Shown piece by piece: positions 43,410-55,828 of a DNA stretch of 64,000 nt. This stretch comes from an uncultured Clostridia bacterium. Its GTDB lineage: Bacteria > Bacillota > Clostridia > UBA1381. The notes under the pieces are model-generated. The model saw only the letters and a program-made list of their open reading frames with translations. It searched no databases and was not told the DNA's origin. The DNA is taken from positions 62,001 through 126,000 of the forward strand of contig CANQDD010000001.1 of assembly GCA_947591315.1 (NCBI GenBank), in the 5' to 3' direction. The position numbers were made by a program, and so were the translations under genes. The number at the start of each line of letters is the position of its first letter. Position 1 is the first letter of the stretch.

Positions 43410-44750
43410 ATGAAAATAGTATTTTACAACACATCGTCAAAGGACGTTACGTCGCGTTCATCCGCGATGTTTTATCCCAAAAGAGCCGACATATGGGACG
43501 ATCTCGCGGACCATTATCCGGAGCATGAGTTTTATTTTGTGACGTCAAACGGCGGCGGCATTCTCTTGGATATTACAAACGGAGAAATTTCGGTTTATCC
43601 GAAAAAGGTTAAGTATGTCATTACCAACTCCCGGGACAGCGCGGATGAGATTGCCGATATCATTATCAGTCTGAACCCCGACGCGGCGATAGAAATTTCG
43701 ACGGCAAACACGCCTATCGACTGGAACTTTATCAAGGATTCCCTTGTAGCCGAAAAGCTCCGCGAAAAGGGCATACGCACCATATCGCACACGCTGTTTT
43801 CGTCGCTGGCGTTTTATGACAAGTGGCGCTCGTCCATGGCGCTGCGCAATTACGGCTTTAACGTCGCCGAAAGCGTTTTCGTCCACAACGACCAGTATTG
43901 GGCGGAAAGAGAAATCAAAAATATGACGAACAACGTATATAAGGAGTATATTTTATACAAAATCAGCCGTCTTAATTATCCCGTTATCATAAAGGGAACC
44001 ATCGGCGCAGGCTCCACGGGAATCGAAATCGCCCAAAGTTTCGAGGAGGCGAAGGCGGTTCTTAATTCCGAAAACAACAATGCCGACCTCATAGTCGAGG
44101 AAATGATACAGGGCGAGAATATCGGCACCGATATTTTCGGAGCGGACGGACAATACCATGTTCCCTCAGCGTATTTTAACTCCACTACCGATAAAAATAT
44201 CTCCGATCCGTACCATCAGATTAAATTCGGTCCGATAACGGCGGAAAGATATAATCTTAAGGAAATGCAGGAGTCGCTTATTAAGCTTGCCAACGATTTT
44301 AAGTTCGGCGCCGGAGCTAATGTCGATTTGATTTTTAAGGACGGTAAGTGGTACATAATCGAGGTCAACCCAAGATGGTCGGGAATGACTACTACGGCTG
44401 CAGCGGCGGAGGGCAGAAACCCGCTTGTCATATACGCAGAGTCGGTATTCGGCAGCTCTTCTAAGTATTCGGATGTTGAAAACCTCAAATATACGCTCAA
44501 CTTCAAAATACCCGAAATTGACGAGGAAACCTTCAACAGGCTCAGCGAGTGCGACTGTGTTAAATCAATGCTTCACAGCATGACGCGCCTGCCGGACAGA
44601 ATCATTCAATACTGCGAAATTATTATCGGCGGATTTGAAACGCCGGATGATTTGATTGCCGGACTCAAAAAAATCAATGACGATTTCCCCGGCGTCGTAT
44701 CCGAGGACGTAATGAAAACCGCCGTAAGCATGGCGGAAAACAATAAATAA
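43410..44750 (+). CDS. ATP-grasp ligase 1
   Basis: Predicted carboxylate-amine (amide- or peptide-forming) ligase, 446 aa. The central ATP-grasp fold shows the Lys-containing strand PVIIKGTIGAGSTGIE, ADLIVEEMIQGENIG, and the metal-binding IIEVNPRWSGM (Glu and Asn). N-terminal (about 1-120) and C-terminal regions are unfamiliar. In this superfamily the acid is activated as acyl phosphate and joined to an amine. It lies 38 nt after the exporter genes with an AGGAGG site, in a run of similarly spaced genes. Substrates are unknown. Confidence 0.8.
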   Translation: MKIVFYNTSSKDVTSRSSAMFYPKRADIWDDLADHYPEHEFYFVTSNGGGILLDITNGEISVYPKKVKYVITNSRDSADEIADIIISLNPDAAIEISTANTPIDWNFIKDSLVAEKLREKGIRTISHTLFSSLAFYDKWRSSMALRNYGFNVAESVFVHNDQYWAEREIKNMTNNVYKEYILYKISRLNYPVIIKGTIGAGSTGIEIAQSFEEAKAVLNSENNNADLIVEEMIQGENIGTDIFGADGQYHVPSAYFNSTTDKNISDPYHQIKFGPITAERYNLKEMQESLIKLANDFKFGAGANVDLIFKDGKWYIIEVNPRWSGMTTTAAAAEGRNPLVIYAESVFGSSSKYSDVENLKYTLNFKIPEIDEETFNRLSECDCVKSMLHSMTRLPDRIIQYCEIIIGGFETPDDLIAGLKKINDDFPGVVSEDVMKTAVSMAENNK

Positions 44751-44771
44751 TATATTTTCGGAGGGAGAAAG

Positions 44772-45644
44772 ATGAATAAAAAGCCTTATACTTTATTTTC
44801 AAACGTGGACGATTTGCTGGAAAAATACGGCGATCACATTTTCGATAACGGCGATAAAATGTTTGACCCTATGGTTATTGATTTTCTTCACGTGTCAATC
44901 GAGTCGGGTCAAAAGCTCAAACTGCGCTACAGGGGAAAAGAGATTGACATTCCTGAATCGTTCTGGCCGTCGGTTTCAAACACTGACGGACTTATAGTAG
45001 AGAGACTTTTGATCGCGGCGGGTTCAAAATGCCTGATAAATATCGATGAGGTCGCGGCGACAAGAAGCAAGATCATAACTTACGGAAGACTGGCGGCGGC
45101 GGGAATAAGGATCCCCAAAACCCTGGTTTTCTTCCACCACACCGACAGGGAATATATTTTGGAAAATATGCAGCCCCCGTTTATCGTAAAGCCCGACAAC
45201 GGCTTCGGCGGCAACGGTGTGGAGCTTATCCATGACGAGAAGGAATTTGACGAATTTCTGTCAAACGTAAAGCCGGGCATTGCTTATATAGCGCAGGAAT
45301 ATATTTCCACCTCATTCGGCAGAGACGTCCGCGTTGTTATGCTGAACGGAAAATATTTCTATTCGGCAATGCGCAACTCAAATAATCCAGACGAGTTCCG
45401 CTCCAATGTTCATCAGGGTGGAGAAATGACGGATTATCCGATTGATAAAGAAACCGAAGCGTTATGCGAAAAGGTCGCGTCGCTGTTCAATTTACCGATT
45501 TTGGGCATTGATTTGCTGATAGGAGACAACGAGTATGTGGTTGTCGAGGTTAACGCAACCCCCGGCGGTTTGCCCGATGACAAGAATAAAGAGGCGTATT
45601 ATTCGATTATAAAGAGCAACGGCATAGACTTGGGACTGGATTAA
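44772..45644 (+). CDS. ATP-grasp ligase 2 (RimK-like)
   Basis: Second, shorter ATP-grasp enzyme, 290 aa, closer to the RimK/LysX amino-acid-adding group. Marks are ATRSKIITYGRLAAAGIRIPKTL before the fold, FIVKPDNGFGGNGVELI, IAQEYISTSFGRDVRV and VVVEVNATPGGLPD. RimK-type enzymes add an amino acid to a carboxyl end. Paired with ligase 1 and the GH3-like enzyme it suggests stepwise amide building without a ribosome or NRPS. Its GGAGGGAG site and 21-nt gap fit one operon. Confidence 0.82.
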   Translation: MNKKPYTLFSNVDDLLEKYGDHIFDNGDKMFDPMVIDFLHVSIESGQKLKLRYRGKEIDIPESFWPSVSNTDGLIVERLLIAAGSKCLINIDEVAATRSKIITYGRLAAAGIRIPKTLVFFHHTDREYILENMQPPFIVKPDNGFGGNGVELIHDEKEFDEFLSNVKPGIAYIAQEYISTSFGRDVRVVMLNGKYFYSAMRNSNNPDEFRSNVHQGGEMTDYPIDKETEALCEKVASLFNLPILGIDLLIGDNEYVVVEVNATPGGLPDDKNKEAYYSIIKSNGIDLGLD

Positions 45645-45673
45645 TTTTCAAAACCGAAAATCAGGAGGAAAAA

Positions 45674-47380
45674 ATGATACATAGATTAGAAATTCCCGAA
45701 GATATAACACCGGAAAATCCGGTGTACGAGTCGTACAACATTTATAACGAGGTTGTCAACATGTGCATGAATGCCGGGGAGTACAGCCGTGATTTGCTGA
45801 TGCGCATAGTGCGCGATAACGAGAATACGGAGTACGGCAAAAGGTACGGGTTCAGCGATATTCATTCTGTCGAGGACTATAAACGTAAGGTTCCGTTTTC
45901 ATCATACGATACTTACGCCGAAGCAATCGAGCATATGGAAAGGGGCGAAACAAACCTGATAACCGCCTACCCGATTGTCCATTACGCCGTGACTTCGGGA
46001 AGCGTGGACAATCCCAAAAACATTCCGGTATCGGACCGCACCATGGACGCGTACATGAAATATGCTTCAAGTATCGCCCAATGCGTATACGACTACGGTA
46101 TACGCCAAATAAAGGGACGTCCGCCTAAATTCGGAAAACAGTTTATGACCGCTGTCGTAAAAACCGATTACGTGAAAGACGGAACGCTTAGGGGACCGAT
46201 ATCGTCGGCGGTATTCATTAAGAAAAAACCGTTTATGCACTATATTCTTCCGCTGCCCACAGAGGTTATGTACCCCGAGGGCAAAAATTTCAATCAAAAG
46301 TATCTACGCGCGTTTTACGCGCTCAAGGAGCGCAATATCGTTTGCATGATCGCGCCGTTCATGACAGCGCTTGTGGATACCATGTACTATATCGAGTCAA
46401 ACTGGCGTTCACTTGTTGACGATATAGAAGCCGGTAGGCTCGACCCCGCCGTGGAGATGGACGAGGATTTTCGCGCGGAGGCGAATGAGCAGCTCAAGCC
46501 CGACCCCGAAAGAGCTGCGGAGCTTAGAGCAATTTTTGAAAAAGGCTTTGACGAGCCGGTTATCCCGCAAATCTGGCAAAACTGTGATTACCTTTCTGCG
46601 ATTGGAGGAGGCGGATTTGCTTCGTACACTCAAAAGATGAGGCGCTACTCAGGCGACATACCGATATATTTTAACTCCTACGGCGCGTCGGAGGGACCGA
46701 TCTCGACCAGTTTGGAGATGGAAACCACGCAGAGCACGATAATACCGGCAAACGGCTTTTTCGAGTTTATTCCGGTGGACGACGACAGCAGCGACCCGAC
46801 TAAAACGCTCAACCTTGACGAGCTTGAAGTCGGATGTGAATACGAGATTATAGTCACAAATCTCGCTGGCTTTTACCGTTACCGCCTTGGCGATGTTGTC
46901 GAGGTTGCGGGTTACGACGGCGAATCCCCGAGACTGCTGTTCAAGTACCGCAAGAACCAGATGGTCAACATTGCGGGCGAAAAGACAAACGAGGCTTGCG
47001 TCGCATGGGTAGTGCGCGAGTTTGAGAAGACGATTGGCGAGCAGATTACCGATTTCAGCATATATGCCGACACCGACGACCTTCCCGGACGCTATGTTAT
47101 GTTTTTGGAACCTGAGAAGCACCTTTCCAAAGAGAAACATGATTATTACCGCGATATATGCGATGAAAAGATGGGAATGGCCAACCCGTCATACGGCGCG
47201 AAGATAAAGGATAAGCTGCTGCTGCCGCTCAAGCTCTGTTTTTTGCAGCAGGAGACGTATTACCTTTACCGCGACCTGATGATGATGAAGGGCATCTCCG
47301 AAAACCAGATAAAGCCCGTGCGCGTGATCGATACGCCAAGAAAGGAAAAATTCTTTTTCGGGTTGATTGATAAAGAATAA
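45674..47380 (+). CDS. GH3-family acyl-adenylating amide synthetase
   Basis: ANL-superfamily enzyme of the GH3 type, which in plants joins amino acids to auxin or jasmonate. The 568-aa protein shows the ATP motifs TSGSVDNPK (about 109), SYGASEGPIS (about 336) and YRYRLGDVVEV (about 407), then a C-terminal domain. Bacterial GH3 proteins are little characterised. Beside two ATP-grasp ligases and an exporter it probably performs one amide-forming step in making a small conjugate or peptide. It ends with its own terminator. Confidence 0.85.
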   Translation: MIHRLEIPEDITPENPVYESYNIYNEVVNMCMNAGEYSRDLLMRIVRDNENTEYGKRYGFSDIHSVEDYKRKVPFSSYDTYAEAIEHMERGETNLITAYPIVHYAVTSGSVDNPKNIPVSDRTMDAYMKYASSIAQCVYDYGIRQIKGRPPKFGKQFMTAVVKTDYVKDGTLRGPISSAVFIKKKPFMHYILPLPTEVMYPEGKNFNQKYLRAFYALKERNIVCMIAPFMTALVDTMYYIESNWRSLVDDIEAGRLDPAVEMDEDFRAEANEQLKPDPERAAELRAIFEKGFDEPVIPQIWQNCDYLSAIGGGGFASYTQKMRRYSGDIPIYFNSYGASEGPISTSLEMETTQSTIIPANGFFEFIPVDDDSSDPTKTLNLDELEVGCEYEIIVTNLAGFYRYRLGDVVEVAGYDGESPRLLFKYRKNQMVNIAGEKTNEACVAWVVREFEKTIGEQITDFSIYADTDDLPGRYVMFLEPEKHLSKEKHDYYRDICDEKMGMANPSYGAKIKDKLLLPLKLCFLQQETYYLYRDLMMMKGISENQIKPVRVIDTPRKEKFFFGLIDKE

Positions 47381-47738: not shown

Positions 47739-47891
47739 ATGATGATAGTGAAAGAAGAAACAGGTAGATATATTATTTTTAATAGAGAAAAGGGAAACGG
47801 GAAAGAGAATTATCGGTATTTTTGCATTGTGCATAATTGCGGCGCAACTGTATATTTTGCGGAAAGAATAAGAATAGGTGGGATTAATTAA
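47739..47891 (+). CDS. hypothetical 50-aa protein coupled to MATE gene
   Basis: Short frame starting at ATGATG behind AAAGGA, with sequence features RYIIFNREKG, a central FCIVHNCGATVYF and two Cys. Its stop overlaps the MATE start (TAATG), so translation coupling is likely. It could be a small protein or simply a coupling leader. Confidence 0.4.
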   Translation: MMIVKEETGRYIIFNREKGNGKENYRYFCIVHNCGATVYFAERIRIGGIN

Positions 47892-49231
47892 TGAAGGATG
47901 ACACACTGAAAAAGACCTTTAAGCTGGCGTGGCCGACGGTTTTTGAATGCGTATTTACGGTTCTCGCGCAGATGATAGATACATATATGCTGTCTGCGCT
48001 CGGCACTTCGGCTGTGGCGGCGGTGGGGCTGACCAGTCAGCCGATGTATTTTCTGATGGCGCCGATTTTCGCGCTGAACTCAACTGTCGGAGCGCTGATT
48101 GCCAGAAGGCGCGGAGAGAACAATAAAACGGAGGCGCACGGAATAGCACGCTTTGCGATTTTGATTGCGGCGGTATATTCGCTGCTGGTGGGAGCCGGCT
48201 GCGTGCTGTTCGGCAAACAGATCATCATGTTCTGCGGCGGAAACGCGGAAACGAAGGACGCGGCGGCTATCTATTTCAGCGTTGTGCTGGGCGGTCTTGT
48301 TTTCAATTCGCTGACGATGATGCTGAACGCGATACAAAGAGGCTGCGAAAATACGCGTATCGCCATGATCTCCAACGCTACCGGCACTGCGGTTAACGTG
48401 ATTTTGAATTACTGCCTTATCTACGGACATTTCGGTATGCCGAGGCTTGAAGTGGCGGGAGCCGCGATAGCCACGGTGACGGGATACGCCGTATCCTTCG
48501 GTATCGCCCTGTGCTCGCTGATTTCTAAGAAAAATTACATAACGCTCGGAAAATTATTATTTGCGCGCGGCCGTCGAATTTCCAAAGACGCGGCTGCGGC
48601 AACGATGAATATGGGCTTTAACACCATGTCCGAGGATATATTAAAGCGCTTTGCTTTCCTCTATATCGGCGTTCTCGCTGCAAAGACAGGAACGGACGCG
48701 TTTGCGGCGCATCAGGTGGGAATGTCGCTTTTAAATCTTGCCTTTGCCTTTGGCTTGGGTATGCAGACAGCCGCCGTGACGCTGGCTGGAAACGCGATGG
48801 GAAGCAAGGATATTCCCTTGGCGAGGCGGTATACTATCCGCTGCCAGATCGTAGGACTTGCGCTGGGTATCACTGTTTCAGGGCTTATTCTGCTGTTTGG
48901 CGATGATTTCTTCGGCTTTTATTTTACCGATGCGTCCGTGCTTACTATCGGCGCGAAAATATGCCGCATTATCGCTGTCATTGTGCCGATACAAATCGTG
49001 CAGATCATATTCAGCGGCACACTGCGCGGCTGCGGAGACATTCGCTATACGCTGATTTCTTCGACGGCAGTGTTCGGCGTATTCAATATTGCCATAGATT
49101 CATTATTTGTACTGGTATTCCATATCGGCATATACGGAATTTGGACCGGAACGCTTTTGGCTCAGTCGCTGCTCGCCGCGTCTCATTTGATCCGCTACTG
49201 TTCCGGTCGCTGGGAGACCAAAAAAATCTGA
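47891..49231 (+). CDS. MATE-family efflux transporter
   Basis: Cation-coupled multidrug/toxin exporter, 446 aa, twelve membrane helices in two six-helix halves; LAWPTVFECVFTVLAQMIDTYMLSALG in helix 1-2 is typical. It lies between the ATP-grasp/GH3 genes and the CRISPR-like module, 22 nt before the latter, and could export the small molecule or share a transcript with the module. Confidence 0.9.
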   Translation: MKDDTLKKTFKLAWPTVFECVFTVLAQMIDTYMLSALGTSAVAAVGLTSQPMYFLMAPIFALNSTVGALIARRRGENNKTEAHGIARFAILIAAVYSLLVGAGCVLFGKQIIMFCGGNAETKDAAAIYFSVVLGGLVFNSLTMMLNAIQRGCENTRIAMISNATGTAVNVILNYCLIYGHFGMPRLEVAGAAIATVTGYAVSFGIALCSLISKKNYITLGKLLFARGRRISKDAAAATMNMGFNTMSEDILKRFAFLYIGVLAAKTGTDAFAAHQVGMSLLNLAFAFGLGMQTAAVTLAGNAMGSKDIPLARRYTIRCQIVGLALGITVSGLILLFGDDFFGFYFTDASVLTIGAKICRIIAVIVPIQIVQIIFSGTLRGCGDIRYTLISSTAVFGVFNIAIDSLFVLVFHIGIYGIWTGTLLAQSLLAASHLIRYCSGRWETKKI

Positions 49232-49252
49232 CGGACGGGAGATGAAGGCACT

Positions 49253-50029
49253 GTGCTTATCAATTTCAGCAATCACCCAAGCGCAAGCTGGCCGCAAAAG
49301 CAGAAGGATGCGGCGAATATCTGGGGAGAGGTCAGGGATATTGTGTTCCCTAGCATTGCTCCGGAGATGTCGGAGGATGAAATCCTCGCGCTTGTGGAGA
49401 GCTATCGAAAAAAATTTCCGTGGGACACGGCAAACCCTGTGTTTTTGGCGGGTGAATACTGCTTTGCCTTTGCCATGACGGATCTGCTTTTAGGCGAGGG
49501 AGTGCGCGTGCTAAGCACGGAATCCAACCTGAAGCTTGTGACGGAACCGATGGAAAACGGAACGACGCGGCGAACAGCCACGCTGGACTTCCTGCGTTTT
49601 CTGGATTACGCGGTCCTTCCGGATGAGCTTACTGTTATCGACGGAAAAAACCGCGTGTTCCTGAACTGCAGCGCGAATTATCCGAGCAGTATGTGGGATG
49701 AGACCGCCATGCGGGAAGCGGAGGCGTACGGAAAGGTTATGGATCTTTCCGTCAAGATGATTGACGGGGCGACCTTTGAGGAACGCTTCGCGAAGGCGAG
49801 GGAATATCTCGCGCGGATCGATGAGATCCGTCTGTCTGCAATACTTTTGGACGGCTCTTTTTGGACGTTCTACCTGATGGCGGATGCCCTTCTCAGAAAG
49901 GGCTACACGGTTCTGGTAAAATGCAGCAGCCGCATTGCGAAGGAAAGAACGGGAGAGGACGGTACGATTATAAAAAATTACGAGTATCGTTTCGTCCGCT
50001 ACCGTCAAATAAAAAGATATAAAATATAA
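49253..50029 (+). CDS. tandem Rossmann-like protein of CRISPR type III-like module
   Basis: A 258-aa protein made of two related halves. Half 1 (about 1-128): LINFSNHPSASW, GEVRDIVFPSI, AGEYCFAFAMTDLLLGEGVRVLST, RFLDYAVL. Half 2 (about 134-258): FLNCSANYPSSMW, GKVMDLSVKMI, DGSFWTFYLMADALLRKGYTVLVK, YRFVRYRQI. The order and spacing repeat, so it is a duplicated alpha/beta domain. The NFSNHPS start resembles in outline the small Csx15/Csx20-type proteins near type III CRISPR loci (from memory). A cyclic-oligonucleotide sensor or ring nuclease is a hypothesis only. GTG start. Confidence 0.55.
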   Translation: MLINFSNHPSASWPQKQKDAANIWGEVRDIVFPSIAPEMSEDEILALVESYRKKFPWDTANPVFLAGEYCFAFAMTDLLLGEGVRVLSTESNLKLVTEPMENGTTRRTATLDFLRFLDYAVLPDELTVIDGKNRVFLNCSANYPSSMWDETAMREAEAYGKVMDLSVKMIDGATFEERFAKAREYLARIDEIRLSAILLDGSFWTFYLMADALLRKGYTVLVKCSSRIAKERTGEDGTIIKNYEYRFVRYRQIKRYKI

Positions 50030-50041
50030 GGAGAAGGAGTT

Positions 50042-50566
50042 ATGGAAGCAAGGCTTAAAGATAAAGAGGTGTTCTGTCTGATCGACACACGCCAAATTCA
50101 GAAATTTATTTTTCATGCGAATGATTTTGAGGCGGTAATCGGGGCAAGCGTATTCCTGAAGGAAGTGATGATGGACGCTTTGCGTTACGCTGTAGGTCAC
50201 ATCGACGAACCGCTGACGGAGGAGGAATATGACCTCAGCTATTCCGATACGGAAGGGCGTATTCCGTGGTTTATTGATCCGAAGATAAAGATACAGCTGA
50301 TAATGTATGCGGCGGGCAACGCTATGATTTTGTTCCGCACGGGCGAGTTATGCGAGAAGATCATCCACAAGGTGTCACGCTATCACTTAGATCACTGCTA
50401 CTGCATCGATTTGGCTGTAAGTGTGTTTGAGAAAACGGACGTATTCGCGGACGACCTGAACGCGCTGTATCGCAGAATGGATCGCATAAAGACGGATTTT
50501 CCGACGGCGCATCCACGGGGCGAAGGGACCGGACGGACGAACGTACCGCGCGGCAATGCATATTGA
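50042..50566 (+). CDS. Cas10-like protein, N-terminal part (frame broken)
   Basis: First part of a Cas10/Cmr2-like protein. LIDTRQIQKFIFHANDFEAVIGASVFLKE matches the start of the Cas10 palm domain (a strand, then I-Q-x-F-I-F and I-x-G-A-S). There is no HD nuclease domain before it. The reading frame changes at about 50516-50520 (ACGGGG): in the +1 frame the sequence continues GAKGPDGRTYRAAMHIDGNNMG into the next entry, so one base seems gained or lost and the intact protein would be about 473 aa. AAGGAG sites precede the ATG. Confidence 0.72.
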   Translation: MEARLKDKEVFCLIDTRQIQKFIFHANDFEAVIGASVFLKEVMMDALRYAVGHIDEPLTEEEYDLSYSDTEGRIPWFIDPKIKIQLIMYAAGNAMILFRTGELCEKIIHKVSRYHLDHCYCIDLAVSVFEKTDVFADDLNALYRRMDRIKTDFPTAHPRGEGTGRTNVPRGNAY

Positions 50567-51464
50567 CGGAAACAATATGGGCATGGTCATCGGGCAGATC
50601 CTCCGCAGGTTCAGCGATTACGAGGACGCGATACGCGCGCGCCGGCGCATTGCCGTTAATATTGACACCGCTTTTGCCGGACTGGTCAGCGAAAGCCTGT
50701 CATGGCTGCACTCGAAATATTTTGACGAATCGGTCTCCGACACGGAGTTTGCGGAATATATTTCAATTACACACTTTGGCGGCGACGACATCAACATAAT
50801 TTCGGAGCCGCATTATGCCGTGCCGTTCATGAGGCATTTGATGGAACAGCTTGACTCATACAGGATATGGGATGAGCCGGATATGCAGGTTGGAATTTCC
50901 GTATGCGGCGGAATTGCCTTTGTCATGCCGGAGCTTTCATATGTGAACGCGCACGGAGCCGCGGACGACTGCTGCTCTATCGCAAAGAAGGAAGCGAAAC
51001 GGGAGCAAAATCAGATAAACGGATTGGCAGGCAACTGGTTTGATTTCGACTTTTTGGACTCCGACTGCCCGCAGTCCGTGGAGAGACGGCGCGAAACGGA
51101 AAATATCACGGCGGAGGGCGTGCATCTGTCGCTGGAGCCGTACAGCTTCGACGAGAAGCAAAAGGATTCGCCGCGCTATTATAAAAAGCTGTTTGAACGT
51201 GTGGAGGCGCTGGAGCGGCTGCAGCTGCCGGAGCGTTATTATCGGCTGCTCTCGGAGTCGTACTCGCTGGGAAAGGTCGAATTCGAGCTGCTGATAGAGC
51301 GCATCGAGGCGGAGGGCTACCCCCTGCGGGAGATGCTGGGAGAGCCAATGGTGACGATAGATTCAGAGAGGTACGCGGTATGGTACGACGCGTTTAGATT
51401 GAGTAACTCCTATCAGCCGCGCAGGATAATTTCCGGAAAGGAGGCAGGAAAATGGGACAAATAA
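50556..51464 (+). CDS. Cas10-like protein, GGDD palm part
   Basis: Second part, 302 aa from an ATG inside the continuing frame. It carries MHIDGNNMGMVIG and the catalytic signature THFGGDDINII (GGDD at residues 75-78), the site where type III Cas10 makes cyclic oligoadenylate, then GISVCGGIAFV and a helical tail. The ATG at 50556 has no ribosome site, so separate expression would need coupling to the upstream frame, which ends 11 nt inside. Overlaps the RAMP gene by 13 nt. Confidence 0.78.
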   Translation: MHIDGNNMGMVIGQILRRFSDYEDAIRARRRIAVNIDTAFAGLVSESLSWLHSKYFDESVSDTEFAEYISITHFGGDDINIISEPHYAVPFMRHLMEQLDSYRIWDEPDMQVGISVCGGIAFVMPELSYVNAHGAADDCCSIAKKEAKREQNQINGLAGNWFDFDFLDSDCPQSVERRRETENITAEGVHLSLEPYSFDEKQKDSPRYYKKLFERVEALERLQLPERYYRLLSESYSLGKVEFELLIERIEAEGYPLREMLGEPMVTIDSERYAVWYDAFRLSNSYQPRRIISGKEAGKWDK

Positions 51465-53206
51465 AAATCCAAACATTGAGTAGGGTTTGCCTTGACGAGG
51501 TCTGGAAGGGCAGAGAGGACGGCGGTCTTCCGGCATATGTGGACCCGCTCGGACTGTTATATATCCCGATGTATTCGCTGTTTTGGGAGGAGCTGCGGGA
51601 ATTTCATGGAGTCCGGCTCGGACTGGGACGGCTTGAGGACTATGCCGGTATTGCCTCCGGCGTACATACGCTGCTGCGCTATGAGCAGATCTCCGTTAAT
51701 ATGGTAACGAGCGCATATATTGAGCCTTATCGGATCGAAGGACCGCAGGGAGAACGAGTGCTTTCGCTTTTGCCCGAGGGACTTGTCTTTGTGGGCAGCA
51801 TCGAGGCGGAAAAAGAGGATAGGGCGAAAATCGAGGAGATCCTCGGCGGCGTCCGCACGCTCGGCTATACGGACGATTATGTAAAGGGCGAGGTGAAGAT
51901 CTCGGTTACGTGGAACGACAGACATGCCGCGTCGAAGAAAACGAAGCGGGATCTGCCCGAGGGCGTACGTTTCCGCCGGCTGGAATATTGCGTCGAAACC
52001 TGCTCCCCCACCTGCATATTCTCTCCGTATGAACGCCGCGTAAAGACAAAAAAATATATCCCGGGAGAGATCCTGGCGGAGTATTTGAGAAATAATATGG
52101 AAGGCTTTGCCACTGAGGACTACAGGATAGCAAACGCGTATCCGAGCGTCGATGAAAGACGCGGTGTCCCCGCGCCGGTTTCCATGTCTTTGGAAAAGCT
52201 GAACAAGTCGGCATTACATTCCCGCCTTGCGCCGGAGCCGGAAGGCTACATTTCCGTGCAGACAGTCCGCATGGACGGACAGTTCATCACAGATCCGATG
52301 GCGCAGACGATACGGCGTTTCTCGGTACAGGATGTGAAGATCTATCCCGCGAGACCGGAATCGGAGCTTTCGGGAGACGAACGCTCCATGAGCGCTATCT
52401 CCGAGGGCTACTGCTTCAGGGGCTATATCGAGGCGGAGGACGAAAAGATACGCCCGCTCTGCCAATTCCTGCGTGAGCATCCCACGTTTTCGATAGGGAG
52501 CTGTACCGATGAGGGCTACGGCGAGGTACGCCTTCAGATCCGTGACGCGCTGGAGGAACGCAGGGAGCCGGAGCAGCTGTGCCGCAAATTCGATATTTTC
52601 CTCGCGTCGCCGTTTATCAGCATTGACGAGAAGGGAATGTACGAGTATGACGCGGACGCGCTAAAACGAGCCATAGAGAAACAGCTCGGCGCGGAGGGCG
52701 AGCTTGTTATCGTACGGAAGTACATCGAGAGCGCCGTCTGCCAGCGTATGGATTCGGGAATGTTCCGCGACGCGACGCAAATGAACTGTATGCAGATGGG
52801 AAGCTCCGTCCGGTTCCGCACGAAAAGCGGTGAGCCGATAGACGTGTCCGCTCTTTCCGGCGCGTTCATCGGGGAATTTACCGAGATAGGCTACGGCGAG
52901 ATACACGTCTATCCGGTGTGCGATTCCTATTATCGCAGCTGCGAAGAGATAGAGGCGGATACGTACCGGCTGTCAGTGCCGGGCAGTCTGCGGGAGCTGT
53001 TGAAAAACGGCGAAGTCATTACGCGCGTGCTGGAGAAGATGCTGCGGACAAGGATCTCCATACTGGCGTTAAACGACAGGCAGGACAGCGGCGGAGAGCT
53101 GCAGATACCGATGGAGCTCCTTCGGGTAATGCGCGATAAATATTGCTATACCTTGGACGACGAGGAGCTTGAACAGATATATCGAGAAGTATTGAGCACT
53201 AAGTAA
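51452..53206 (+). CDS. triple-RAMP protein (Csx10-like)
   Basis: A 584-aa protein that reads as three RAMP (Cas5/Cas7-like RRM) units. Unit 1 has the usual D-x-x-G-x-x-Y-I-P-x-x-S-L-x-x-x-L-R-E pattern (about 31-50) and ends at ILGGVRTLGY...GEVKI. Unit 2 ends with the glycine-rich loop IGSCTDEGYGEVRL (about 347-360). Unit 3 ends with GEFTEIGYGEIHVYP (about 473-487). Csx10 of type III-D is the nearest match by outline. It lies next to a Cas10-like GGDD gene and a Csx19-like gene. No separate Cas7, Cas11 or Cas6 is present, so it may replace several subunits. Confidence 0.7.
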   Translation: MGQIKIQTLSRVCLDEVWKGREDGGLPAYVDPLGLLYIPMYSLFWEELREFHGVRLGLGRLEDYAGIASGVHTLLRYEQISVNMVTSAYIEPYRIEGPQGERVLSLLPEGLVFVGSIEAEKEDRAKIEEILGGVRTLGYTDDYVKGEVKISVTWNDRHAASKKTKRDLPEGVRFRRLEYCVETCSPTCIFSPYERRVKTKKYIPGEILAEYLRNNMEGFATEDYRIANAYPSVDERRGVPAPVSMSLEKLNKSALHSRLAPEPEGYISVQTVRMDGQFITDPMAQTIRRFSVQDVKIYPARPESELSGDERSMSAISEGYCFRGYIEAEDEKIRPLCQFLREHPTFSIGSCTDEGYGEVRLQIRDALEERREPEQLCRKFDIFLASPFISIDEKGMYEYDADALKRAIEKQLGAEGELVIVRKYIESAVCQRMDSGMFRDATQMNCMQMGSSVRFRTKSGEPIDVSALSGAFIGEFTEIGYGEIHVYPVCDSYYRSCEEIEADTYRLSVPGSLRELLKNGEVITRVLEKMLRTRISILALNDRQDSGGELQIPMELLRVMRDKYCYTLDDEELEQIYREVLSTK

Positions 53207-53217
53207 GGAGTTATACT

Positions 53218-53636
53218 ATGATAATTACGGATTTGAAAAACACGAATAAGTTTCATTTGGCGCCGGAGCGCGGGTATATTCTGGCGGTTTTCGACGACAG
53301 CGTGATTTTTGAGCGCTATCAAAAGACGGGTGACGGAATCGCCTTCCGCGGCTGTGAGGAGAAAAAACATCTCCGCTCACAAGGCTGCATTTGTTCGATG
53401 AAACGACGGAATACCGTCTTATGACAACAAGCGGCAGGGGCGTTATCGAGCACGCCGTGACCGAAAGCGAGGAACGGGATATCGAGCCGGATCTCATATA
53501 CGAGGATAAGATGCTGATTGCGGACCGTTTCACAAAGGAACATGACATTGACTCCCTGCGGATAATAAACCGGTATCGCTACACATGGTTCGACACCCTT
53601 ACTCTGGACGACTACCGCATCGCGCCGGGCGAATAG
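53218..53636 (+). pseudogene. Csx19-like gene, frameshifted at an A6 run
   Basis: Two overlapping frames form one protein of about 139 aa if a -1 shift occurs at the A6 run 53362-53367: MIITDLKNTNKF...GYILAVFDDSVIFERY in the first, LFDETTEYRLMTTSGRG...RYRYTWFDTLTLDDYRI in the second. The pattern of a hydrophobic strand with F-D-D, an L-F-x-x-x-x-E-x-R-L unit and a final R-Y strand pair resembles Csx19, a small partner of Csx10 in type III-D loci (from memory). The shift could be a mutation, an assembly error, or slippage. Confidence 0.55.
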
Positions 53637-53674
53637 TCCGCTTATGGCACGAAACGGTGGATTTACGGCACGAA

Positions 53675-53902
53675 ATGTTTGATTTTGTGTCGGTCACGGC
53701 GAAGGAGATTTCATCTGAACAAATAAAAGATGTATTTCCTGTACAAATTACGCTTAATGCCTCTTTGCCATATACTTTGGGGAAAGATTATTCCGTCTAT
53801 TTTTGTGATGGAAATGCTGCCAAAAAGCAGAACGTTATATATTCAGATAAATCCAAGGTGACTTTTCAAACCTCAAAATATGGTAGATTTACCCTGTATG
53901 CT
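53675..53902 (+). pseudogene. fragment of a secreted/surface protein
   Basis: About 76 codons reading VSVTAKEISSEQIK...LGKDYSVYFCDG...KSKVTFQTSKYGRFTLYA, the style of C-terminal repeats in clostridial adhesion or SLH proteins. There is no start or signal peptide. It ends abruptly at the point where the truncated RhuM gene on the other strand begins to diverge, marking a recombination joint near 53905. Confidence 0.5.
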
Positions 53903-54721
53903 CATAGGAATATGCCGCTCGGCTTGAAGCTCTGCGTAATCAAGGTAAAGCGACACAATTCTTTCCAAAAATGACAGCTCCTTTTCGGTCAGATAATTCT
54001 TCGCAACAGTAACATCGCTTTTGATAATTTTACCGTCGGGCGCATTTTCCCATGACGTAAGCCCCATGTGCTCCTTTTCCGCGTCGGCGCGCTCCGCTAT
54101 AAGCTCCGCCGCCGTGTGTCTGTGGGTGGCTGTTCTGTACGGTCTGAAAAACAGCTTCGTGGCTTTCGCATCCTTGTCATAATCAAATGCGGTCGCGTAT
54201 AAATCTGTTACCTTTTGATAGAATTTTCTCTCGGAAAGACGGATCTCACGGATATTCTCTAACTGACGCTCAAAATATTCGTCCGTAAACATCGTACCCT
54301 TTTTCAAGCGTTCAACATCCATCGTCCAGCCTTGAATAGTGTAATCCTTAACTATCTGTCCCGCCCATTTTCTGAACTGCACGGCGCGTTCATTGTTCAC
54401 CTTGAAACCAACGGCAATAATAGCCTGCAAATTATAATGATTTGTTTTATAATTCTTTCCGTCTGCGGCAGTTATTAAGTATTTCTTAATAACTGAACCT
54501 TCAATCAATTCTCCATCGTCAAAAATTCTTTTCAGATGCTGATTTATAGCTGATACAGACACATCATACAAAGCCGCCATCATCTTTTGTGTCAGCCATA
54601 TATTTTCATCTTCATACCGCATTTCGACGCTGCTTTCCTCTCCGCCCACCGAAGCGACGTATGTAAGGTATTCGGCGGCACTTGAGCGGATTGTTATCTC
54701 GTTCTTTCCCTTTTTAGCCAT
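53873..54721 (-). CDS. RhuM-family protein, C-terminus truncated
   Basis: Member of the RhuM/virulence-protein family often found in mobile islands; the biochemical role is unclear. The 282-aa protein shows the helix-turn-helix-like IWLTQKMMAALYDVSVSAINQHLKRIF, the KNYKTNHYNLQAIIAVGFKVNN block and AVQFRKWA. The family normally continues well past AERHIPM, roughly another 50-70 residues by memory; here 12 foreign residues follow and the frame stops, so the end is lost at the joint near 53905. Probably non-functional or altered. Confidence 0.82.
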   Translation of the reverse strand: MAKKGKNEITIRSSAAEYLTYVASVGGEESSVEMRYEDENIWLTQKMMAALYDVSVSAINQHLKRIFDDGELIEGSVIKKYLITAADGKNYKTNHYNLQAIIAVGFKVNNERAVQFRKWAGQIVKDYTIQGWTMDVERLKKGTMFTDEYFERQLENIREIRLSERKFYQKVTDLYATAFDYDKDAKATKLFFRPYRTATHRHTAAELIAERADAEKEHMGLTSWENAPDGKIIKSDVTVAKNYLTEKELSFLERIVSLYLDYAELQAERHIPMSIQGKSTIF

Positions 54722-54768
54722 AATAACGTCCTTTCACCACACTTTAATATTCTTAAAGAAGTCACTGT

Positions 54769-55113
54769 CTATCCGTTATGTGACGCTATTCTTATTTTTG
54801 TTGGGTGTATATTTCTTGTTTTATTCTTTTGTAAATATTCCGCCTGCTTGTTCTTGATGTCCGCTATATCCAAGGCGTAAATGCTCTTACCCTCATTCAG
54901 CCGCTTCGCAATTTGATTTATATTGTTGCCGTTATACTGAAGCAAGCGCAATATTTCTTTCATCTCCGACATATCAAGCTTTACGATTAAGCCGTCTATT
55001 GCCATTTTGCGCAGATATGCGCTCATATTGACGCAGCCGCTCTGTGCCATCTTTTGTCGGATAAGGTCGTATTCGTCCTGTGAAACTCTAAGATGTATTC
55101 GTTGTTCTCTCAT
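54769..55113 (-). CDS. MobC-like relaxosome accessory protein
   Basis: A 114-aa DNA-binding helper for a MobA-type relaxase. Marks: RIHLRVSQDEYDLIRQKM, VNMSAYLRKMAIDGLIVKLD and the C-terminal NNINQIAKRLNEG. The ATG at 55113 is taken; an alternative three codons upstream is too close to GGAAGG. It lies at the far end of the island from mobA, next to the recombinase fragment. Confidence 0.87.
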   Translation of the reverse strand: MREQRIHLRVSQDEYDLIRQKMAQSGCVNMSAYLRKMAIDGLIVKLDMSEMKEILRLLQYNGNNINQIAKRLNEGKSIYALDIADIKNKQAEYLQKNKTRNIHPTKIRIASHNG

Positions 55114-55141
55114 AATTAACATCACCTTCCCTTAATAAAAT

Positions 55142-55828
55142 ACATATTTTATCAAACAATGTACCCGTGAGCTGTACTACTGCACGAGCAAATATTTTGA
55201 GAGCCGCCAAGACCACTTTGTATGCTTGACCTCACGAAAGCAAGGTACAGACGTATGCGATACACATTTCATCAGAGCAGTCGTTCTTGAACAGGGCGTG
55301 TTACAACATCTGCGGTATGTAATCAATTTTGTATCAAGCTTTGAGGACAAATTGCGTGAAATAATGGGCGCAAAGCATAAGGCGGAAGTCAAAAAAGAGC
55401 TTGCAGCAAAACGCAGAGCTATAACCAAAGCCGAGAAGCGAATTGCCGAGTTAGACCGATTATTCAAATCGATCTACGAGGATAAGGCTAACGGTACGCT
55501 CAATGAAATCCGTTTCAAAATGCTTGCGGATGATTATGAGCGGGAGCAGGAGGATTTGAGAAAATCCATTGACAATCTGACCGCCGAAGTTGAACAACAA
55601 AAGGAGCAGTCCGACAACATAGAGCGGTTCATCGGAAAGGTTCACAAATATTTCGACTTGCAGGAATTAACGCCGACAATATTAAATGATATGGTACAAA
55701 GGGTTTACGTCCACTCGCCGGAGAAGAAAAACGGCAAACGGACGCAGCAAATTGACATTTACTACGACTTGGTAGGCTTTCTGCCAATGTCATTGTTTCA
55801 AAATGAAAAGCAGGATAGAGTCGCATAA
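55142..55828 (+). pseudogene. C-terminal part of a large serine recombinase (TnpX/TndX type)
   Basis: An open frame reading CTRELYYCTSKYFESRQDHF, CDTHFIRAVVLEQGVLQHL, a long coiled coil (KRRAITKAEKRIAELDRLFK) and a RTQQIDIYYDLVGF end: the zinc-ribbon tail, coiled coil and DUF4368-like end of large serine recombinases that move clostridial transposons. The catalytic and core DNA-binding domains are missing, cut at about 55160. It reads outward and ends 29 bp before the right inverted repeat, the usual place for the recombinase of such an element. The island is therefore probably no longer able to move by itself. Confidence 0.85.

Follow-up and report, generated by a model that had tools for sequence, protein, structure and literature searches.

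The window analyzed here is a stretch of 64,000 nucleotides (nt) from an uncultured Clostridia bacterium (GenBank assembly GCA_947591315.1, contig CANQDD010000001.1, positions 62,001 to 126,000). Within it, five co-directional genes encoding a MATE-family transporter, a tandem Csx20, a Cas10, a fusion of RAMP-type domains and a Csx19 form one operon, referred to below as the module, whose features are given here in window coordinates.

47891-49231, + strand: MATE-family transporter of 446 amino acids, the first gene of the operon (PF01554, 5.9e-50; TIGR00797, 5.1e-63)
49253-50029, + strand: tandem Csx20 of 258 amino acids with two CARF-like halves (PADLOC PDLC01397, 2.1e-38, N half; PDLC01038, 2.0e-17, C half)
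50042-51464, + strand: cas10, HD-less and with GGDD, broken into frames 50042-50566 and 50556-51464 (PDLC02057 on the two pieces)
51452-53206, + strand: fusion of an eroded Cas7, a Cas5 (Csx10) and a short tail, 584 amino acids, frame open (PDLC02089, 4.7e-20)
53218-53636, + strand: csx19, broken by a 1-nt frame shift into pieces 53218-53424 and 53391-53636 (PDLC profile, 2.4e-4 per piece)
47771-53644, no strand: widest extent of the DNA common to related copies around the operon (pairwise blastn)

The four cas-like genes overlap or lie 11-12 nt apart, the tight spacing described in the earlier note on this DNA, and the MATE gene ends 21 nt upstream of csx20. A scan of genome contigs identified four close relatives of the module (L002-L005), which share its gene order and differ in their immediate flanks. 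Compared with these relatives, the window's cas10 carries a 143-nt deletion that shifts its frame and its csx19 is 1 nt out of frame, so that the joined frames assumed earlier (50042-51464 and 53218-53636) were right as to identity, Cas10 and Csx19, and wrong as to intactness. Pfam and NCBIfam detected the cas-like genes weakly or not at all (Cas10 palm, 1e-4; Csx20 and Csx10; all below cut-off).

A search of 391 genomes of the class with PDLC02089 yielded, besides three module genomes, 17 genomes with 18 III-D loci, from which stretches of 8-19 kb were fetched as a comparison set. One of these loci (L057) has a differing layout with shorter separate Cas7-like open reading frames (ORFs), and a weak match in genome G146 (7.9e-4) is an ordinary III-D locus. 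Conserved columns were taken from alignments with III-D proteins (Cas7, n=12; Cas5 plus tail, n=11; Cas10, n=14; Csx19, n=14 at a looser threshold) and scored as kept or changed in L002-L004.

The two pieces of the window's Cas10, searched apart, matched PDLC02057 at 8.7e-19 and 3.2e-37, and an intact relative matched it at 8e-65, nearly end to end. Since this last match starts at residue 10, there is no N-terminal HD extension, and the earlier description of an HD-less Cas10 with a GGDD site is borne out. Absence of the HD domain is usual in III-D Cas10 proteins (PMC11026444, in excerpt), and we therefore rejected it as a special feature of the module. A profile built from the Cas10 proteins of the four relatives matched the III-Dv Cas10 in PDB entry 8s9t_C (2.1e-6), and its hhalign comparison with III-D was strong (E 1.3e-38). 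Thirty-eight of 65 conserved Cas10 columns are kept, among them the GDD of GGDD (14 of 14 in III-D), the D-G-N and M of IDGNNM and the serine of IGAS. In a tree of 19 rows, 15 of them non-module Cas10s drawn from PDLC02089-hit loci only, the module groups with L038, L040, L041 and L044, all loci with a fused Cas7-Cas5 (support 99/99, branch 3.02), with the caveat, raised as a warning by the program, that the branches of the module and of L044 are both long and come together. At the level of sequence, the profile matches and the tree confirm that the module belongs to the type III-D (III-Dv-like) lineage, the origin proposed for it before.

The 584-amino acid protein is of the Cas5_IIId/Csx10 type, although TIGR02674 stays below its curated cut-off (17.5 vs. 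177.3 bits). It had been described as three RAMP-like units; it instead consists of one eroded Cas7 domain followed by a Cas5 domain, and ends in a short tail. The Cas5-and-tail part aligned well with III-D by hhalign (99.1%, E 5.2e-19) and keeps 20 of 31 conserved columns, and the Cas7 domain keeps 10 of 36. The column of the catalytic Asp was placed through an alignment of L040 to D26 of 8s9t_A, reported to be catalytic (PMC11026444, in excerpt); it holds Gly in L002-L004 and in the window alike, and D in 10 of the 12 III-D proteins. Past the last Cas5 glycine loop, in the Cas11-like region, the tail has 102 residues vs. 140-221 in 11 III-D proteins. A conserved Lys-Gly near the first helix and the Arg-Gly of the last glycine loop, which we take to be RNA contacts, are also changed. 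A profile search of solved structures returned nothing credible for this protein.

The other subunits of the backbone were sought with the L040 proteins as queries, the window being included among the module loci. Separate proteins of the Cas7-2x type are present in 18 of the 18 comparison loci and in none of the five module loci, a count that disregards the weak hits of the Cas7-2x query (3.9e-7 to 6.3e-5) on the RAMP protein of the module itself, and those of the Cas7-insertion type in 17 of 18 (the remaining locus, L056, ends at a contig edge) vs. none of five. PDLC02111, the Cas7 model searched genome-wide, had no match in the five module genomes. The idea that one multi-RAMP protein replaces the backbone accordingly fails: judged from its sequence, the fusion is the counterpart of the ordinary III-Dv Cas7-Cas5-Cas11 subunit, shortened and with its Cas7 domain eroded, and the other backbone subunits are missing. 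A single effector resembling Cas7-11 (III-E, III-I) was likewise considered and rejected, as the module has a single Cas7 domain, itself eroded, and retains a cyclase Cas10.

The small protein proposed to be Csx19-like is so by profile, with matches of 2e-14 in two intact relatives, and its frame is open in L002-L005. It keeps 10 of 40 conserved columns at the looser threshold. In the III-Dv effector, Csx19 sits between Cas5 and Cas10 and touches the CRISPR RNA (crRNA; PMC11026444, in excerpt); the protein is a component common to III-D1 and III-Dv, and the module has it as well.

The duplicated alpha/beta protein of the earlier note is a tandem Csx20. Its N half matches PDLC01397, a Csx20 model, over the full length, with NCBIfam NF040559 below cut-off (30.5 vs. 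70 bits); the model matched by the C half, PDLC01038, is one for Csx15/20. Compared with five single-domain proteins, the N half keeps the conserved His, Gln and Gly-Glu and has both conserved Arg changed; the C half keeps two Arg and the Cys, Glu and Thr lost from the N half, and has the conserved His, Gln and Glu changed. Neither half holds the full set of conserved residues, and the losses of the two are complementary. A site shared across the dimer is reported for the ring nuclease Crn4 (PMC12830947, in excerpt), and if the Csx20 site is also dimer-shared, the two fused halves would together make up a single, complete composite site. The known Csx20 is a ring nuclease for cyclic tetra-adenylate (cA4), tested as a single domain, and 31 loci are on record with a ring nuclease but without a known effector (both from an excerpt of PMC12409355). 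Both module halves are Csx20-like; unlike the known ring nucleases, the module fuses two halves with complementary residue loss. The AlphaFold2 model of the pair had a mean predicted local distance difference test score of 68.7 and weak structure matches, and a profile search of solved structures gave nothing credible. Among the 391 class genomes there were three full-length matches to the tandem protein, all of them module copies, five genomes matched with the N half only, and G245 had a weak C-half match. A single Csx20 occurs also in L041 and L044, which belong to the module's Cas10 group, and in L050, which lies outside it. Matches to CARF effectors, searched with two queries only, were found in nine of the 18 comparison loci vs. 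none of the five module loci. Elsewhere, a single-domain Csx20 (9185-9547 of L076:4426-17508) has neighbours with matches to the Cas3-like helicase, C3a214 and MkoA defence models, and no type III core gene was detected in the six neighbours scanned.

The four relatives come from metagenome-assembled genomes titled uncultured Clostridia or Monoglobus, with isolate names that start with 'Lapin', French for rabbit, and which would therefore probably represent rabbit-gut samples. Searches for further copies in 150 relatives, in 391 genomes of the class and in 38 genomes of a second family returned the same four contigs (G043, G357, G283 and G467/G471) and no others. No relatives of the module were found in viral contigs, in plasmids with the RAMP query or in phages with the Cas10 query. 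None of the five known copies stands beside a full type III operon, the setting in which the earlier note would have taken this for just a decayed copy.

All five genes are open in three of the five copies (L002, L003 and L004). L005 has a frame break in its RAMP gene, and its MATE gene matches by tblastn over 446 residues, although the listed ORF begins 17 codons later. Over 34 gene pairs, the ratio of nonsynonymous to synonymous divergence (dN/dS) was 0.055-0.165, which places all five genes under purifying selection across the copies. The synonymous divergence (dS) between the window and L002 is 0.296 for MATE, 0.395 for csx20 and 0.356 for RAMP, and 1.79 for the type I-C cas1 of the same two genomes. 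As these genomes belong to different families, the low divergence of the module shows that its genes moved between lineages together, and that the module is one horizontally moving five-gene unit, MATE included. That the module is a functionless remnant of a III-D system in decay is therefore very improbable. The window is broken in two genes, L005 in one, and the backbone subunits are missing; this suits decay, and the worry about a decayed copy was justified for those two copies. For the family as a whole, the three copies that are open throughout, the dN/dS values and the transfer as a unit argue against it, and we rejected decay there on dN/dS.

In pairwise blastn, the copies align with the window from a point 21-120 nt ahead of the MATE start up to no more than 8 nt from the csx19 stop. 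Beyond this segment, the sequence shared by L004 and L005 continues downstream for about another 900 nt; that of L002 and L003 resumes downstream, past a short gap, and extends over several kb. A 3-kb block that is 88% identical (L003:166-3141 and L004:6-2981) lies about 3 kb upstream of the operon in L003 and L004, whose genomes are from different families, with unlike DNA in between. The flanking contexts of the copies are thus not fully independent, and since pairs of copies share blocks up- and downstream, the operon may ride on larger islands.

Several neighbouring genes were recorded in passing. Adjoining the module in the window (53873-55828) are a RhuM-family gene, a NikA/MobC-like mobilisation gene and a DUF4368 ORF, which are signs of a mobile element. 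In L004, the DNA about 5 kb downstream of the module (L004:17070-20992) encodes a MobA/MobL relaxase and an AbiEi/AbiEii pair, and L003 has an HK97-gp10-like gene upstream (L003:5674-6012) and a RelB/YoeB pair downstream (L003:12264-12789). Upstream of the module, positions 43410-47380 hold two ATP-grasp-like genes along with one GH3-like gene, assigned by eye, which may form a small biosynthetic cluster.

The suggestion that the MATE transporter could be part of the unit has been strengthened: the gene is present in five of the five module loci vs. none of the 18 comparison III-D loci in the fetched stretches. Its domain spans the whole chain (TIGR00797 profile positions 1-396 of 396), and its dN/dS is 0.065-0.116 in six pairs. 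We considered it possible, if doubtful, that the MATE is an ordinary exporter riding along, and that the unit proper consists of the four cas-like genes, which would act on effectors from other loci. The normal family matches and length, with no extra domain found, would fit this, as would the dS of MATE to L004 (0.58-0.76), which is lower than that of csx20, cas10, RAMP and csx19 (0.73-1.25); because of this difference, the history of MATE may differ in part from that of the other four genes. Against it stand the presence of the gene in every copy at a spacing of about 21 nt, the start of the shared DNA just before MATE, and dS values that, in the three nearest copies, are close to those of the remaining genes. 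Nor does any other MATE in the two genome samples exceed 41% identity, the nearest non-module homologue being 39% identical among the 150 relatives (E up to 1e-60) and 41% among the 391 class genomes (E up to 1e-95).

No CRISPR array was found in the window, in the remainder of its 168-kb contig (C1) or in L002-L005. The searches covered these, together with four Cas1 regions, and one repeat motif was searched for in the five genomes. The earlier observation of no array, adaptation gene or separate Cas7 holds for the locus, but elsewhere the host genome has a type I-C system with an array. We rejected the lack of an array as a special feature, since 10 of the 18 comparison loci also have none near their genes in the fetched stretch; in the excerpt of PMC12669027, array-less loci are called usual in III-B, III-C, III-E and III-F, a list that leaves III-D out. 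Cas1 matches were found in four of the five module genomes, in type I-C loci with arrays. The regions fetched have ORFs whose order and sizes match those of cas3, cas5, cas8c, cas7, cas4, cas1 and cas2, with 15, 75 and 19 repeats in G000, G357 and G283 (in G357 cas5 is not listed as a separate ORF), and a locus at a contig end in G467 runs from cas8c to cas2 with 65 repeats. Profiles confirmed Cas1 and, in G000, cas8c; the remaining genes were named by their order and size. In the window's own genome, G000, the I-C-like locus (contig C3, L062:2879-11563) has its 15 repeats up to the contig end, and similar loci are L063, L064 and L065. In the fifth genome, G043, there was no Cas1 match, and a single repeat fragment lies at the end of a contig. 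PF10040, the sole Cas6 family tested, is absent from all five.

These arrays raise another explanation, in which the Cas10 base is a crRNA-guided sensor that borrows the host's I-C crRNAs and signals without cutting. We regard this as rather unlikely. In its favor, the I-C repeat end, GTTGAAAC or GTTGAAAT, resembles the ATTGAAAC found at that place in several III-D arrays, and I-C loci with arrays or, in G043, a repeat fragment occur in every host. Many CRISPR repeats end alike, however, and G043 has no Cas1 match, though its genome is 84% complete. With cas8c found in 16 of 100 other relatives searched (15 of 101 genomes, the window's own included, above the cut-off), the association with I-C gave a Fisher p of 0.0046, calculated with 16 of 99 because G043 was taken as in the sample, from marker genes that differ and uncorrected for kinship. 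Kinship may explain it, as eight of the 16 genomes of the window's genus, its own included, have cas8c. The use of type I-F crRNAs by a type III-B system is documented (PMC5576922, in excerpt), and the module resembles that case in having array-less type III genes with a type I array in the genome; there, however, the type III-B effector is whole, and the module has no separate Cas7 backbone to hold a spacer and a last Cas7 without most of its conserved columns.

The interpretation that we favor, tentatively, is that the module is a mobile, reduced cyclic-oligoadenylate signalling device derived from a III-D (III-Dv-like) effector. The effector would be reduced to the base of the complex, with Cas10 and its cyclase motif, the Cas5 domain and Csx19 kept; apparently lost are the Cas7-2x and Cas7-insertion subunits and the catalytic Asp of the last Cas7, and the Cas11-like tail appears shortened. 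By itself, the module probably does not cleave RNA as a CRISPR effector. We infer that the base would bind an RNA end and that Cas10 would make cyclic oligoadenylate, with cA4 as the best guess because that is the molecule degraded by the single-domain Csx20 tested. The two fused Csx20 halves would then bind the signal, clear it, or both, as receiver or off-switch, and the MATE would provide an output at the membrane.

A number of observations weigh against this interpretation. The copies are close kin and few independent witnesses (their RAMP proteins are 77-92% identical to the window's), and two of the five are broken, the window in cas10 and csx19 and L005 in RAMP. The hhalign matches to III-D are weak for the Cas7 part (63%, E 6.8e-5) and for Csx19 (59%, E 9.3e-5), and two of the 12 ordinary III-D Cas7 domains also have no Asp at the catalytic column. 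Profile scans found no sensor or extra domain on the MATE, whose lower dS to L004 was described above. Finally, the module differs from III-D Cas10 at 27 of the 65 conserved columns, two of which hold Gly in 14 of 14 III-D proteins and Ala here, so that cyclase activity is likely but not assured.

A different version of such signalling, which we consider unlikely, is a guide-free operon in which Cas10, Cas5 and Csx19 would sense an RNA end or the state of the cell, the Csx20 pair would serve as a SAVED-like receptor with a composite site, and a dedicated MATE would respond by changing the membrane or by exporting the signal or a metabolite. Quite improbable, in our view, is guide-free inhibitory signalling as in Panoptes, where a nucleotide made constantly by Cas10 would keep the output quiet until phage sponges or nucleases released it. 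The loss of the backbone with retention of the cyclase motif, and the presence in one operon of a membrane protein and a protein from a nucleotide-binding family, are compatible with this, and Panoptes (mCpol plus 2TM-beta) shows that a Cas10-type palm can act in this way (PMC12657230, in excerpt). Cas5 and Csx19 are under selection, though a bare cyclase would need neither, and a ring-nuclease family protein would counter a constantly needed signal unless it merely binds it. The module is like Panoptes in having a Cas10-type palm outside a full CRISPR system and a membrane protein in the operon; it differs in its full-length Cas10, in keeping Cas5 and Csx19, in having Csx20 and MATE, and in lacking a 2TM-beta protein.

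The reduced III-D signalling device that we favor shares with the III-Dv effector of Synechocystis (PDB 8s9t; PMC11026444, in excerpt) an HD-less GGDD Cas10, a fusion of the Cas7-Cas5-Cas11 type and Csx19. It differs from that effector in having no Cas7-2x or Cas7-insertion protein, in the lost Asp and shortened tail of the fusion and in a locus where neither an array nor adaptation genes were found, and it adds the MATE and the tandem Csx20. In open-licence papers in PubMed Central we found no description of a III-D derivative without the Cas7 backbone or with a MATE, nor of a MATE together with Cas10 or type III CRISPR. The module looks like an intermediate form, with full type III effectors on one side and bare cyclases such as mCpol on the other, the guide-holding parts having been lost and the alarm kept. 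It thereby raises the question of what a Cas10 complex senses once the usual means of holding a guide is lost, and it makes a transporter family a candidate output of type III-type signalling.

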